Assembly: GCA_009698615.1 (NCBI GenBank)
Contig: WLPU01000007.1
Location: 1 to 64,000 of the forward strand
DNA: 64,000 bases
Reading direction: 5' to 3'
From: Actinomycetota bacterium
GTDB lineage: Bacteria > Actinomycetota > Actinomycetes > Nanopelagicales > Nanopelagicaceae
Each line of letters opens with the position of its first letter. Position 1 is the first letter of the stretch. The notes beneath the pieces are model-generated. The model saw only the letters and a list, made by a program, of their open reading frames with translations. It was not told where the DNA came from and did not search any database. Both the position numbers and the translations under genes were made by a program. Positions 53,923 through 59,732 of the stretch are shown piece by piece.

Positions 53923-54035
53923 TCACCCGCAATCAGCCCACAAAATCTTTAGTTGACGGGGTGATAGCGAGGGGCTTTTGGAGTAGAGCCCGCGTGCTCT
54001 AATCTGTACTCCTACAGACAGTGAGGACAAGGACT

Positions 54036-54833
54036 ATGGGCGAAAAAAACTCTTTCCTTAGTTGGGTTGGATTTAAGGGAGAAGAAACCGAAGCCCCTGG
54101 ATCGGTCGATCGTATTCGCGAACTCGAAAGTCAAATTGCTGATCTGCGTGCCCGTCGAGATATCACCACTTTGTCTAAAGAAGAATTTGAAATTCTCGCA
54201 ACTGAAACTGCAATGACAATGATTAAGTCTGCACAAATGCGTGAGGCAAAGGCGCAGGGCAAAGCAGATCGTTTAATTAATGAAACAGCCCGACAAGCAA
54301 AAGATGCCATTGAAGCTGCCGATCAAAAAGCAAAAGCGCTGCTCACAAGTGCAGAAACTCGTGGCCGCAAATATCTCCAGGCAGCCGAGTCTGATGCAGC
54401 CGAAAAGATTGAAACCGCAGAACTCCAAGCAGACACAATTTTGGAAACTAAGCGAAGAGAAGCCGCCGGTCTGGCAACTGCTGCACGTCGCGAGGGAGAA
54501 CGCATCGTCTCGGAAGCAGCAAGAGAAGTTACTGACTATCGCGAGTGGTTATCGGGTGTAATTTCAGAAGCTGAACGCCTTTATAAGATTCAAACACAAT
54601 CTCTCGATGCCGCTGAAAGCGCAATTCATACCTCGCGCTCGCGTCTGGAAGGGGCTTTTGCGCGTTTAGCTGAACTCCAAAGTAGCGTCTTAGAAAACTT
54701 GAGATCTGATGACACGCTAATTACAAAAACACCTGTGCGCGTTCAAAGTGAACGAACGAAACCAGCTATTGCTGCTCCTAAGCGCAAGACTGCAAAGAAA
54801 GCGAATAAGAAATCCGCAGCTAAACGTAAATAA
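54036..54833 (+). CDS. Coiled-coil protein with Lys-rich C-terminal tail
   Basis: A 265-residue protein without a membrane segment. After a short N-terminal SFLSWVGFKG segment it is almost entirely predicted coiled coil (about residues 25-215), rich in Ala, Glu, Lys and Arg, with long stretches lacking Pro and Gly. The C-terminus (about 240-265) is strongly basic (KRKTAKKANKKSAAKRK), like a nucleic-acid-binding tail. It recalls DivIVA/Wag31- or cell-wall-synthesis-associated coiled coils, but no DivIVA N-terminal motif is clear. AAGG lies before the ATG. It is five bases from the acyltransferase gene. Confidence 0.65.
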   Translation: MGEKNSFLSWVGFKGEETEAPGSVDRIRELESQIADLRARRDITTLSKEEFEILATETAMTMIKSAQMREAKAQGKADRLINETARQAKDAIEAADQKAKALLTSAETRGRKYLQAAESDAAEKIETAELQADTILETKRREAAGLATAARREGERIVSEAAREVTDYREWLSGVISEAERLYKIQTQSLDAAESAIHTSRSRLEGAFARLAELQSSVLENLRSDDTLITKTPVRVQSERTKPAIAAPKRKTAKKANKKSAAKRK

Positions 54834-54838
54834 TTTCA

Positions 54839-56602
54839 ATGGAAGAAAAACGAGGCGTACGTTACATCCCAGCAATTGATGGTCTTCGTGCCATTGCTGT
54901 TGTCGCAGTCATGCTTTATCACCTTGGATTTAATTGGATTCCTGGTGGATTTCTTGGCGTAGATCTATTTTTCGTTATCTCTGGATATGTGATTACGAGA
55001 TTACTCTTAGATTCAATACAACGAAGCGGTGGCCTAGATCTTCGCGGATTTTATATGGCAAGAATTCGAAGATTAGTACCAGCGCTGATATTCATGATTT
55101 TCACCACGGCGCTATTCGTCGGTGCGTGGGCACCTGAAGCGATTAAACGCTTCGTTAAAGATTTGCCCTTTGTCTTAACAGGAACAATGAACTGGGCCTT
55201 GGTCTACCGCCACCAAGATTACTTCGCAACAATTGGACGTCCACCCCTTTTGCAACACACATGGTCCCTTGCTGTAGAGAGTCAGTTCTATCTCTTTTGG
55301 CCACTGATCTTGCTCATTGTTTTGAGATACTTTGGCAAAAATCGGATCCCTGGTGCCGCACTCGCCATTGCGGGGATTTCAGGCACGGTGCTTCTACTTC
55401 TATCTCTCAAGTTAGATGCATCTAACGCACAAAGTGTGAGCCATGTTTACTTTGGTACAGACACCCACAGCATCGGACTTTTCCTCGGCGCTGCACTTGC
55501 CGTGAGTTGGATTCCTCAAAACCTCACGACAAATATTGCGGCGCGCGCGCAAGATTTTATTGATGGCATTGGTGTATTCGGTTTACTCGGCTTAGTCTCC
55601 TGTTTTCTATTTATCGATGAAACCAACGCGAATCTCTATCGAATAGCTTTCCCTCTTGCTGGAATTTTCGGCTGTGCAATTATTATTTCCTTGGTACATC
55701 CAGCCTCGCGCTTTGCTCCCATTCTGAGCATTCCTCCAATTCTTTGGATCGGACAGCGTTCATACGCCATTTATTTGTGGCACTGGATCATCTTCCAAGT
55801 CACAAGACCAACAATGGATCTGGCTGGTCAACCATGGGCGCTATATGCCCTGCGAGTTCTCATTGTCTTTGCACTAGCTGACATTTCTCTTCGCTGGGTG
55901 GAACTACCAATCCGGAGCGACTCAGTTGGCGAATGGTTCCGCGGTATGAAATATCGCACGAAGAAGGTGCGAGTTCGTCAGCAAAGTACTGTAATTGCTG
56001 GGCTTTTAATTCTCTTTGTTTCTGCGGCAATCGTAAGCACAAATGCAATTACACAAAGTGACAAAGCCCAACGAATTCTTGAAAAATCTTTGACTGCAGT
56101 ACCTACAACTCCACCCACAATTTCCAATGTGCCAGGGCTGTGGGTTGCAGGAGATTCAGTAATTCTGGGAATTCGTTACGAACTTGCGCAGTTTGAACCG
56201 ATCGATCTCATTAATGCAAAAGTTGGCCGCCAAGCCAATGAATTAATCACTGTACTCAAGCATGATAAGACGCTCATGGCGAACTCTCCTGTCATTTTAG
56301 ATCTGGGAAATAATAATCGTCTTACAGAAGCTGAGGTTGCGAACGTTTTTGATGTCATTAAGGATCAACCGCAAATCATCATCGTGAATACCGCTGTGCC
56401 ACGAGGGTGGAGAGATGCAAACAACGCTTTAATCGCTAAGTACACACATAAGTATTCTCAAGCATCACTCGTGGATTGGTTCTCGATTTCGACCGGCCAC
56501 CCAGAGTATTTCGGACCAGATGGCGTGCATTTAGTTCCCGAAGGTATAACTGCTTATGTAAATGCGATTATTTCAAAGATTTATGCCCCAGAAATAAAAT
56601 AA
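54839..56602 (+). CDS. Surface acyltransferase with C-terminal SGNH domain (OafA-like)
   Basis: A 587-residue membrane enzyme. The N-terminal acyltransferase-3 domain (about residues 8-355) has about ten membrane segments and the family motifs YIPAIDGLRAIAVVAVMLYH and GGFLGVDLFFVISGYVI. After an eleventh membrane segment (near 385-405), an extracellular SGNH hydrolase-like domain carries the nucleophile motif AGDSVILG near 440 and the DGVHLVPEG Asp/His motif near 565. Such proteins O-acetylate cell-surface glycans. Ribosome-site support is weak; it is probably translated after the coiled-coil gene. Confidence 0.9.
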   Translation: MEEKRGVRYIPAIDGLRAIAVVAVMLYHLGFNWIPGGFLGVDLFFVISGYVITRLLLDSIQRSGGLDLRGFYMARIRRLVPALIFMIFTTALFVGAWAPEAIKRFVKDLPFVLTGTMNWALVYRHQDYFATIGRPPLLQHTWSLAVESQFYLFWPLILLIVLRYFGKNRIPGAALAIAGISGTVLLLLSLKLDASNAQSVSHVYFGTDTHSIGLFLGAALAVSWIPQNLTTNIAARAQDFIDGIGVFGLLGLVSCFLFIDETNANLYRIAFPLAGIFGCAIIISLVHPASRFAPILSIPPILWIGQRSYAIYLWHWIIFQVTRPTMDLAGQPWALYALRVLIVFALADISLRWVELPIRSDSVGEWFRGMKYRTKKVRVRQQSTVIAGLLILFVSAAIVSTNAITQSDKAQRILEKSLTAVPTTPPTISNVPGLWVAGDSVILGIRYELAQFEPIDLINAKVGRQANELITVLKHDKTLMANSPVILDLGNNNRLTEAEVANVFDVIKDQPQIIIVNTAVPRGWRDANNALIAKYTHKYSQASLVDWFSISTGHPEYFGPDGVHLVPEGITAYVNAIISKIYAPEIK

Positions 56603-56633
56603 CCCCCGCACACATTTGCGCGAGGGTTATTTT
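56596..56633. terminator. Bidirectional terminator between acyltransferase and H1-like gene
   Basis: AAAATAACCC pairs with GGGTTATTTT around an inner CGCA/TGCG stem. A and T runs flank both sides, so it can stop transcription of the two convergent genes. Its left arm overlaps the last codons of the acyltransferase gene. Confidence 0.85.
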
Positions 56634-56644
56634 AACTTCAGAGT

Positions 56645-57499
56645 TTAGGAATAAAGCCCTGGGAGACCGAAGGATGCTTTTCCAAGCACTGTCGTTCCGA
56701 TTACTGTTTGAGAATCCGAATAAACACTCGAAACTCTAAAAGCGGTCCAAGAATTTCCAGAAGATTCACCCTTGGTAACGGCTAAAGAAGTGCTCATTGC
56801 GGGTACGGCAGATAACAACTTCCATTCGCCGTTATTGACAGAAATTTCAACGTTATACGTCGTGAGACCTTCTACTGCAGCAGGAGCCTTCCAAGTGATG
56901 TTGGCTCCAGTTGCTGTGAGGTGAGAATTAATTGCGACGGGACCTTCGTGCGCAGACAAAGCCGCAGCTGTTTCTGAAGCGGTTTCCGATGGAGTTGCTT
57001 CAGGGGTAGCAGCAGCAGATTCAGTTGATTCTGCGGTAGTTGAAGGCAAAGGTTGCGCCGCATCGTCATTTCCTTTGGACTTGGAAACAACAACAAGTGC
57101 TAGCAAAACAATTCCGATAATCACTGCATAGACAACCCGATTTGACGCACCTGGCTTCTTAGCGGTTGATGAGGCTGGAGATTTTGAAGAAGCCTTTGCT
57201 GGTGCTGGAGTCGTGCTCACTGAAACGCTAGGTTTCCCACTTCCACCACGCAGAGGTACAGCGGGTACGACAAAATTAGCTGATACTTTTGCTGCGCTCT
57301 TTCGCGCTGAAGATTTCTTCGTAGCCTTGCGAACAGGAGCCTTCTTAACAGCTCTCTTTGCCGTCTTCTTCTTCGCTGCCGATTTCTTTGCAACAGATTT
57401 TCTAGGAGAAGCCTTCTTGGCAGTTCTCTTAACTGCAGTCTTCTTTACGGACTTCTTCTTCGCCACTGACTTCTTGGCGGTTGATTTCTTTACAGCCAC
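56645..57499 (-). CDS. Membrane protein with histone H1-like tail and FN3-like domain
   Basis: A 284-residue protein of unusual layout. Residues 1-72 are a Lys/Ala/Ser/Thr-rich tail with repeated KK-S/T/A units, like the C-terminal tail of histone H1 and bacterial H1-like proteins. A Ser/Pro/Ala linker follows, then one membrane helix (121-139), a Ser/Thr/Glu-rich linker (about 150-185), and a C-terminal fibronectin III-like beta domain (about 190-284). The positive tail should be cytoplasmic and the FN3 domain outside. GTG start with AGGAG five bases upstream. The function is unknown; a link between nucleoid and envelope is one possibility. Confidence 0.75.
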   Translation of the reverse strand: MAVKKSTAKKSVAKKKSVKKTAVKRTAKKASPRKSVAKKSAAKKKTAKRAVKKAPVRKATKKSSARKSAAKVSANFVVPAVPLRGGSGKPSVSVSTTPAPAKASSKSPASSTAKKPGASNRVVYAVIIGIVLLALVVVSKSKGNDDAAQPLPSTTAESTESAAATPEATPSETASETAAALSAHEGPVAINSHLTATGANITWKAPAAVEGLTTYNVEISVNNGEWKLLSAVPAMSTSLAVTKGESSGNSWTAFRVSSVYSDSQTVIGTTVLGKASFGLPGLYS

Positions 57500-57556
57500 G
57501 ATAACTCCTTGGTTTGAGTGTGTACTTAGCGCAAAAGGACACTTATAGGGCTAAGG

Positions 57557-58177
57557 CTACCTTAATGAGGCAAGCATTGTGACGACCTTCGGCGCAATTG
57601 CGCGAAGAGATTGGCCTCTATGGCTAATTGCATCCTTCGCACTCGAGTCCATCTGCGCAAGAGAAAGCTCACTTCCTACCGGGTGAAAGATTGGGTCATA
57701 GCCAAACCCTTTATCGCCAGCAGGCATATTTGCTATGTAACCCTTCAAAATGCCCTCTTGTGTGATGCTGGATCCGTCAGGCATGGCTAATGAAGTCACA
57801 CATGTGAAATGTGCAGTCCGATCAACTATAGATACGTGTGCTAATTCCAATAGAACTTTTTCAAGATTTGCTTTGTCGTTTCCATGCACACCAGACCATC
57901 GGGCTGAAAAGATTCCAGGGTTTCCATCAAGTGCATCTACGCATAATCCGCTGTCATCTGCAATTGCTGGTAACCCTGTCTGCTCGCACACTGTTCGTGC
58001 TTTGAGAAGGGAATTCTCTTCAAAGGATGTCCCAGTTTCTTCAACATCTCCGAGTTCTGGAAATTGTTCTAACCCCACCAAGTCAATCTGACCCGGAGCT
58101 ATGTCATCAAGAATTCGGCGAAATTCTTCAATCTTTCCGACATTTCGAGTCGCAAGCACTAGCCGATGTCGCGTCAT
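57557..58177 (-). CDS. rdgB: dITP/XTP pyrophosphatase
   Basis: A 206-residue Ham1/RdgB-type enzyme hydrolysing non-canonical purine nucleoside triphosphates. Motifs are LATRNVGKIEEFRRIL (2-20 region) and ADDSGLCVDAL near 73, with the GFGYDPIF and SHRGQ motifs near the end. The ATG at 58177 lies eight bases after the rph stop; upstream in-frame codons lie inside rph. It is the last gene of the operon. Confidence 0.94.
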   Translation of the reverse strand: MTRHRLVLATRNVGKIEEFRRILDDIAPGQIDLVGLEQFPELGDVEETGTSFEENSLLKARTVCEQTGLPAIADDSGLCVDALDGNPGIFSARWSGVHGNDKANLEKVLLELAHVSIVDRTAHFTCVTSLAMPDGSSITQEGILKGYIANMPAGDKGFGYDPIFHPVGSELSLAQMDSSAKDAISHRGQSLRAIAPKVVTMLASLR

Positions 58178-58185
58178 TGCAATAG

Positions 58186-58911
58186 TTATTTGGCGAAAAT
58201 TGCGATTTGAAGTGCGGCTAACTCTTTGCATCCAGCAACCGCTAGATCTAATAGCGAATCTAGCAACGCACGGTCAAATGGTTGACCTTCTGCGGTTCCT
58301 TGAACCTCAATGAACTTTCCATTTCCACTGCAGACAACATTCATATCTGTATCTGCGCGAACATCTTCTTCATAGCAAAGATCCAACATTGGAACGCCAT
58401 CGATAATCCCTACGCTTACTGCCGCCACCGAATCAGATAACGGCTGAGATTTTGCGGGGATATGACCTTTCTCCTTCGCCCAAGCAATTGCATCAGCTAA
58501 GGCAACGTAGGCTCCGGTGATCGCAGCTGTGCGTGTTCCGCCATCTGCTTGTAAGACATCGCAGTCAATAACAATTGTGTTCTCGCCAAGTTCTTTCATA
58601 TTGACGATGGCACGAAGTGAGCGGCCAACAAGTCGAGATATTTCTTGTGTGCGCCCGCCCAGTTTTCCTTTTACGCTCTCACGATCTGACCGTGTGTGAG
58701 TTGCACGTGGCAGCATTGCATATTCGGATGTCACCCAACCGGTACCAGAATCTTTGAGCCATCGTGGAACGCCAGGGGTAAAAGAAGCGACACACAGAAC
58801 TCTTGTGCCCCCAAACTCAACAAGGACTGATCCTTCTGCGTTGTCTAACCAGTTGCGAGTGAACTTAATTGCTCGCAGATCTCCATTGCTTCTTCCATCG
58901 TTGCGGGACAT
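58186..58911 (-). CDS. rph: Ribonuclease PH
   Basis: A 241-residue phosphate-dependent 3' exoribonuclease acting on tRNA precursors. Conserved parts are the R-x-x-x-FTRNW N-terminus, [13 protein letters not shown] near 65-77, and [18 protein letters not shown] near 120, which forms the phosphate-binding site. The ATG at 58911 has GAGAGGAAATC upstream. It lies between murI and rdgB, a common actinobacterial order. Confidence 0.95.
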
Positions 58912-58934
58912 GATTTCCTCTCCTAGGGTCAAAC

Positions 58935-59732
58935 TTAAATATCTTGATGTTCTACATGTCCAACTTCTGGACCAAGAAATCTTCGCGCTAACTTCTCAAA
59001 TGCTGCGGCATCACCGGTGGCCAGGAATCGGTGACTGGGCAGCGCCGACTGGGTACTGCGCGAAAGAGAATTCTCAATCAAGACTCGGTAAAGATCTTTT
59101 GCGGTTTCTTCGGCACTTGATACAAGAGATACATCATTTCCCATCACGTAAGAAATTACTCCCGTCAATAGCGGATAGTGCGTGCACCCGAGTACCAAGG
59201 TGTCGACCTTTGCCTCCATAATTGGGGCTAGGTATTCGCGAGCAATCTTTGTAATTGCTTCACCTGAAGTTTCGCCACGTTCTACAAATTCCACAAATAA
59301 TGGACAAGCTGCGGAGGCAATAACAAGCTGCGGTGCTGCAGCAAAAGCATCGGCATAAGCCTTCGACTCAATAGTCGCAAGCGTGCCTATAACTCCAACT
59401 CGGCCACTGCGAGTTGCAGCAACTGCGCGTCTGACCGCGGGTTGGATTACTTCGATCACCGGAATCGAATATCGCTCTCGTGCATCTCGCAACATTGCAG
59501 CACTGGCAGTATTGCAAGCAATAACAATTGCCTTACATCCTTGATCTACAAGAAAATCTAAAGTCTCTAAACCGAATTCACGAACTTCGGCCAATGGGCG
59601 TGGACCGTAGGGACCGCGTGCTGTATCACCAATATAAAGAGTTGACTCATGCGGAAGTTGATCAAGAATCGCGCGAGCAACTGTCAGGCCACCCACTCCT
59701 GAATCAAATATTCCAATCGGTGCATCACTCAC
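58935..59732 (-). CDS. murI: Glutamate racemase
   Basis: A 265-residue enzyme making D-glutamate for peptidoglycan. The two catalytic Cys are in IACNTASAA near residue 73 and [10 protein letters not shown] near 187, with the N-terminal [11 protein letters not shown] motif. Start is a GTG with a TAGGCT -10-like element six bases upstream, in a 24-base gap after DUF2017. Confidence 0.95.

Follow-up and report, generated by a model that had tools for sequence, protein, structure and literature searches.

A lysine-tailed membrane protein with a predicted outer fibronectin type III-like domain in Nanopelagicales: a candidate link between DNA and the cell envelope

The locus and its gene order

The window analysed here is a stretch of 64,000 nucleotides from a member of the Nanopelagicaceae (assembly GCA_009698615.1, contig WLPU01000007.1). 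It contains, on the minus strand (56645..57499), a gene called X in what follows, which was identified from the open frame list and from its relatives and encodes a membrane protein of 284 amino acids. The coordinates agree exactly with those of the original prediction, which gave no strand. X starts with a GTG codon at 57499, preceded by the Shine–Dalgarno sequence AAGGAG (57505..57510, minus strand), and the same motif is found 5' of the gene in its relatives. In 28 of 30 relatives a comparable ribosome-binding sequence precedes a protein that begins with MAVKK, MAAKK, MATKK or MAVAKK; in the remaining two the start is truncated by contig ends.

Upstream of X, and also on the minus strand, lies rdgB for a non-canonical purine NTP pyrophosphatase (57557..58231, given as the longest open reading frame, so that the true start may be later), with rph for ribonuclease PH (58186..58932) and murI for glutamate racemase (58935..59732) beyond it; all three were assigned from Pfam or NCBIfam matches and synteny. 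Facing X on the plus strand is a gene for a membrane acyltransferase of the Acyl_transf_3 family (54839..56602), assigned from Pfam, synteny and ortholog comparison, whose C-terminal part shows SGNH-like motifs (GDS and DxxH-like) that can be read from the translation. Further on, again on the plus strand, is a gene for a coiled-coil-type protein (54021..54833), defined by the alignment of its relatives, which is highly conserved, also in its FLxWVGFKGE start and its basic C-terminal tail, and matches no Pfam family. The functions named for these neighbours are putative ones. Between the convergent genes for X and the acyltransferase the sequence reads as a palindrome, AAAATAACCC...GGGTTATTTT (56596..56633), which is likely to be a two-way terminator; it was not listed by the hairpin scan, whose loops were of 3–8 bases only.

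The order murI–rph–rdgB–X, with the acyltransferase gene opposed to it and the coiled-coil gene beyond, is found in essentially every locus that is long enough. The acyltransferase ortholog is absent from all ten X-less genomes tested, which have either paralogs of 30–34% or none; the same ten also lack the coiled-coil protein, except for one partial match at a contig end. Both are present in 9/9 X-bearing genomes tested, and the rph–rdgB core remains in the X-less genomes wherever it can be read. Within a single genus, one genome (G025) has X and the acyltransferase whereas another (G125) has neither. Losses and gains affect all three genes (X, acyltransferase and coiled-coil protein) together. 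The coiled-coil protein keeps its basic C-terminal end in 77 relatives, with 10–18 lysines or arginines in the last 40 residues, and hence two of the three members of this module have lysine-rich tails.

The coiled-coil protein was considered as a DivIVA/Wag31 protein and rejected, as it scores 18 bits against the NCBIfam Wag31 profile, where the cut-off is 260, and gives nothing with the DivIVA family (PF05103). That family found no match in ten Nanopelagicaceae genomes, including the window's own, whilst the control, Corynebacterium glutamicum, is matched. As judged by this profile, the Nanopelagicaceae may be a group without a recognisable DivIVA.

Domain architecture of X

The N-terminal tail of X (residues 1–72; 57284..57499, minus strand) is H1-like, being composed almost wholly of lysine, alanine, serine, valine, threonine and arginine, with no acidic residue and with KK pairs every 4–5 residues. 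The first 73 residues of the protein contain 26 lysines and 5 arginines and neither aspartate nor glutamate. When the tails of 61 sequences were compared with shuffles, lysine and arginine were found to recur at lags of 4–5, 9–10 and 14 (z +16 to +36) and to avoid lags of 2–3 and 7 (z down to -44), where the z values are descriptive only, since the 61 tails are related and hence not independent. The tails of orthologs are 49 to 120 residues long, exact length being less well kept than composition and spacing. The Pfam HC2 profile (PF07382) makes a partial match, with 21.9 bits for the whole protein and 23.8 bits for the tail, both below the gathering cut-off of 40, a value that is exceeded by the tail of one relative (43.5 bits). 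None of four shuffled tails of X is matched. As judged by spacing and profile, the lysine-repeat pattern goes beyond mere composition, and the KK-rich, H1-like tail that had been proposed from the sequence is borne out.

Similar AKK-repeat tails are carried at the C-terminus by HU (L168 1309-1836) and by the ribosomal protein bL17 (L155 1144-1680) of the same genome, so that the tail of X is of a kind that is found in this organism on nucleic-acid-binding proteins, those for DNA and for rRNA alike. No winged helix-turn-helix domain was matched by Pfam in the N-terminal 118 residues, which consist of the low-complexity tail and a linker and are predicted by AlphaFold to have no secondary structure (pLDDT 45–58). 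The linker between tail and helix contains a short conserved motif, FxVPxVP in the alignment, which in X reads FVVPAVP (residues 76–82; 57254..57274, minus strand) and is kept as VPxVP (P79 and P82).

The single transmembrane helix (residues 120–141; 57077..57142, minus strand) is indicated by an AlphaFold helix, by hydropathy and by the charges that flank it. In the family the net charge averages about +38 on the N-terminal side of the helix and -5 on the C-terminal side, whilst the immediate flanks carry +2.9 and -2.1 respectively. The positive-inside rule is well established and, in conjunction with this asymmetry, it predicts that the tail of X lies in the cytoplasm and the C-terminal domain outside. 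A layout with the tail inside, one helix and an outer domain had been put forward in the original prediction, and is supported, as a prediction, by the charge difference, by the depth of the helix within the protein and by the Ser/Thr/Pro-containing linker that follows. The idea that the hydrophobic stretch acts as a late signal peptide was rejected in view of charge and of its position about 120 residues from the start, and no cleavage site was seen there. The second linker (residues 142–182; 56954..57076, minus strand), rich in serine, threonine, proline and glutamate, is predicted from the alignment and AlphaFold to be disordered and to lie outside.

The C-terminal part of X is a fibronectin type III (FN3)-like domain (residues 183–284; 56648..56953, minus strand). 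AlphaFold, run on the family alignment, predicts eight strands over residues 188–280, with a block pLDDT of 88–98 over residues 181–284 and of about 95 over the fold itself (183–281). Foldseek and VIA-align both return FN3 domains, the best structural match being the FN3 domain of Clostridium perfringens GH84C (2w1n; VIA Z 12.0, 2.2 Å over 91 residues). A profile search with the X family picks up FN3con (E 3.2e-7) as well as domains of titin, whereas the window's domain alone scores 14.5 bits against Pfam fn3, where the cut-off is 25; a match to fn3 at E<0.01 is obtained with 12 of 43 relatives. On the model the outer domain has an FN3 fold, and the profile match to FN3con agrees with the fold and with the FN3-like domain originally claimed. 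This domain is the best conserved part of X, with a mean column entropy of 1.24 bits compared with 1.42 in the tail.

Distribution and selective constraint

When 60 relatives were searched, X turned up in all 20 genomes of the same genus and in the majority of the family's genera. The X family profile matches 197 of 201 genomes of the order Nanopelagicales, although 14 of these matches are weak (E about 1e-4 to 1e-11) and those of the genomes concerned that were rechecked with a helix-plus-FN3 profile gave mostly nothing or an FN3-like match in another protein. Named carriers include Ca. Planktophila, Ca. Nanopelagicus and actinobacterial single-cell genomes. Several public metagenome bins under the names Streptomyces griseus or Bifidobacterium breve (L034, L049, L069, L088, L091, L094, L102) also carry the X locus with its gene order, and hence these names look wrong.

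An assembly gap as the cause of the absence of X from three genera (g5, g9 and g12) is ruled out wherever rdgB is there and the sequence runs on past it, a call that leaves aside four genomes lacking rdgB and two in which the contig ends. Outside Nanopelagicales, a profile of the transmembrane segment and FN3 domain gave just weak FN3 or transmembrane/linker matches in other families of the class, and so no wider distribution is claimed. As far as these searches extend, X appears to be specific to Nanopelagicales (freshwater acI actinobacteria). No literature on X in Nanopelagicales or acI was found among open-licence papers, a scope that makes this weak evidence of absence. As a separate observation, a contig from another genus of the family (C57 of genome G024; L133, L137, L140, L141, L143) contains an open frame of some 16,900 codons with many FN3-like matches, which encodes a giant protein, probably of the surface.

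The layout of X was surveyed in 80 named loci, which gave 74 relatives readable at full length. All 74 keep a lysine-rich segment (24–51 lysines or arginines and 0–8 acidic residues before the helix), one helix and a C-terminal domain, so that the domain order, which the original prediction had proposed to seek in related genomes, is indeed found there. In close pairs the dN/dS ratio is 0.04–0.28 for the N region, 0.04–0.28 for the helix and linker and 0.03–0.19 for the FN3 domain; the low values at the N region and at the FN3 domain mean that both ends of X are under purifying selection. X is a real gene, as its layout recurs across Nanopelagicales, each of its segments has a dN/dS of 0.03–0.28 and the surrounding genes keep a fixed order. 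A chance frame or a repeat artefact is ruled out by the conservation and by dN/dS below 0.3.

Comparison with known systems

X had been described as having a layout for which no characterised protein was known. This stands for the outer FN3 domain, for which no precedent was found, but not for the tail with a membrane helix, a pairing that is known in Rv3852, the so-called H-NS of Mycobacterium tuberculosis. Rv3852 combines lysine-rich KAAK/PAKK repeats with a membrane helix at its C-terminus; it reportedly remains tethered to the membrane when DNA-bound, and it interacts with the polar scaffold Wag31 (PMC8233713, PMC4433263). Its loss disturbs nascent wall synthesis (PMC8233713), and the physiological relevance of its DNA binding is called uncertain, a knock-out being without the phenotype sought (PMC4433263). 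Like X, Rv3852 has N-terminal lysine-rich repeats and a membrane helix further on in the same protein. Unlike in X, the helix is at the C-terminus, there are only about five repeats and no outside domain is described. Moreover, Rv3852 is confined to slow-growing mycobacteria, and its likeness to X is one of layout and composition. A Wag31-type partner for X is not established, since the ten Nanopelagicaceae genomes gave no DivIVA-family match.

Lysine tails of the AKKA/PAKKA type are shared with HbhA and HupB, in which they are C-terminal and occur without an FN3 domain. HupB is built on an HU core and is not known to have a membrane helix. HbhA, with a coiled coil and a C-terminal lysine-rich tail, is closer in layout to the neighbour of X at 54021-54833. 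The tails of HbhA and HupB bind DNA, and in HbhA the AKKA-repeat domain is both necessary and sufficient for this (PMC10665949). The same study found that the ribosomal protein RplV, which has AKKA motifs, binds 23S rRNA and failed to bind DNA, and mycobacterial HbhA associates with sulfated glycoconjugates (PMC10665949).

The chlamydial HC2 and bacterial histone H1-like proteins (PF07382) resemble X in tail composition and KK spacing and in the profile match, but the window protein, at 21.9–23.8 bits, falls below the family cut-off of 40. We know of no membrane helix and no outside domain in these proteins. Regulators of the ToxR/CadC type have the general layout of X, namely a cytoplasmic DNA-binding part (a predicted one in X), a single helix and an outside domain. 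These regulators bind specific sites through a winged helix. X differs in having a disordered lysine-repeat tail and no winged helix. In CadC, clustering follows DNA binding (PMC6320335). Hence, as far as was searched, a tail with a membrane helix is not new, whereas the outer FN3 domain, the conservation across an order and the three-gene module are.

Proposed role and alternative explanations

The reading preferred here, to which a probability of about 0.5 is given, is that X may be a membrane-anchored nucleoid-binding protein that links DNA to an envelope-modifying site. The lysine-repeat tail would stay in the cytoplasm and bind DNA, probably irrespective of sequence, the single helix would hold the protein in the membrane, and the FN3 domain would reach into the cell wall to bind or position an envelope component. 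X would serve to bring the nucleoid to a certain site of the envelope, or to mark that site, and would work with the neighbouring basic-tailed coiled-coil protein and with the acyltransferase, which would modify a surface or wall polymer. Support comes from the layout kept in 74/74 relatives, the non-random spacing of lysine and arginine, the HC2 match, the tail on HU, the fixed synteny and the joint presence or absence of the three genes. DNA binding by the tail is plausible because similar repeats bind DNA in HbhA, and yet RplV with such motifs did not; AKKA motifs are no guarantee of DNA binding, and bL17 of the same genome has such a tail, which counts against a DNA tether. We infer the joint work of X, the coiled-coil protein and the acyltransferase, and likewise the ligand of the FN3 domain.

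The tail could instead be an electrostatic clamp on acidic lipids, polyphosphate or another polyanion at the inner face, which would fix or slow the FN3 domain at an envelope site with no involvement of nucleic acid. Tails that vary from 49 to 120 residues while keeping composition and spacing would suit such a clamp, as would the basic tails on both X and its coiled-coil neighbour. It is nonetheless unlikely, for the helix already anchors X, a lipid clamp of 70 residues exceeds the need, and the tested tails of this kind bind DNA (PMC10665949).

A further alternative, for which we see a small chance, is that RNA or ribosomes are the target of the tail, which would keep mRNA or ribosomes engaged in translation at the membrane whilst the FN3 domain works outside. 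The tail on bL17 and the behaviour of RplV, which binds 23S rRNA and not DNA (PMC10665949), point in this direction, but such tails bind DNA in HupB, HbhA and Rv3852. Moreover, rph alone among the neighbours of X concerns RNA, and rph and rdgB adjoin without X in other genera.

It is equally improbable that X is mainly an envelope protein, in which the FN3 domain recognises a polymer of the wall that the acyltransferase makes or modifies, the tail serving only as a positive-inside topology signal and as a docking signal for protein partners such as the coiled-coil protein. This would fit the co-occurrence and synteny of the three genes and the FN3 domain being better conserved than the tail (1.24 as against 1.42 bits of entropy), but 24–51 regularly spaced positive charges far exceed what topology requires, and a basic tail would not dock on the basic tail of a partner, though it could bind a coiled coil. 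A reversed topology, with the hydrophobic stretch as a late signal peptide or an N-out anchor and the tail outside on acidic wall polymers, is most improbable: a lysine-rich tail is able to act at the surface, as HbhA illustrates (PMC10665949), but the charges (+2.9/-2.1 at the flanks, +38/-5 net) run against it under the positive-inside rule, and the helix starts 120 residues in with no cleavage site seen.

If X does link DNA to the envelope, a larger proposal can be made, which is possible though rather doubtful. X would be a dedicated single-protein link from chromosome to wall in freshwater Nanopelagicales and, together with the coiled-coil protein and the acyltransferase, would form a module, specific to the order, that serves to expand the envelope or to position the nucleoid in small cells with no recognisable DivIVA.

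Significance

Direct tethers between chromosome and envelope are rare and mostly site-specific. A DNA-binding X would be a conserved one-protein tether in one of the most abundant groups of freshwater bacteria, and the coordination of nucleoid and wall growth in streamlined cells without a recognisable DivIVA would become directly testable. It would also suggest that the odd layout of the mycobacterial Rv3852 belongs to a theme more widespread among actinobacteria. Should the tail of X bind something else, the module is still a well-defined and apparently unstudied set of genes, specific to the order, that includes an envelope-modifying enzyme.
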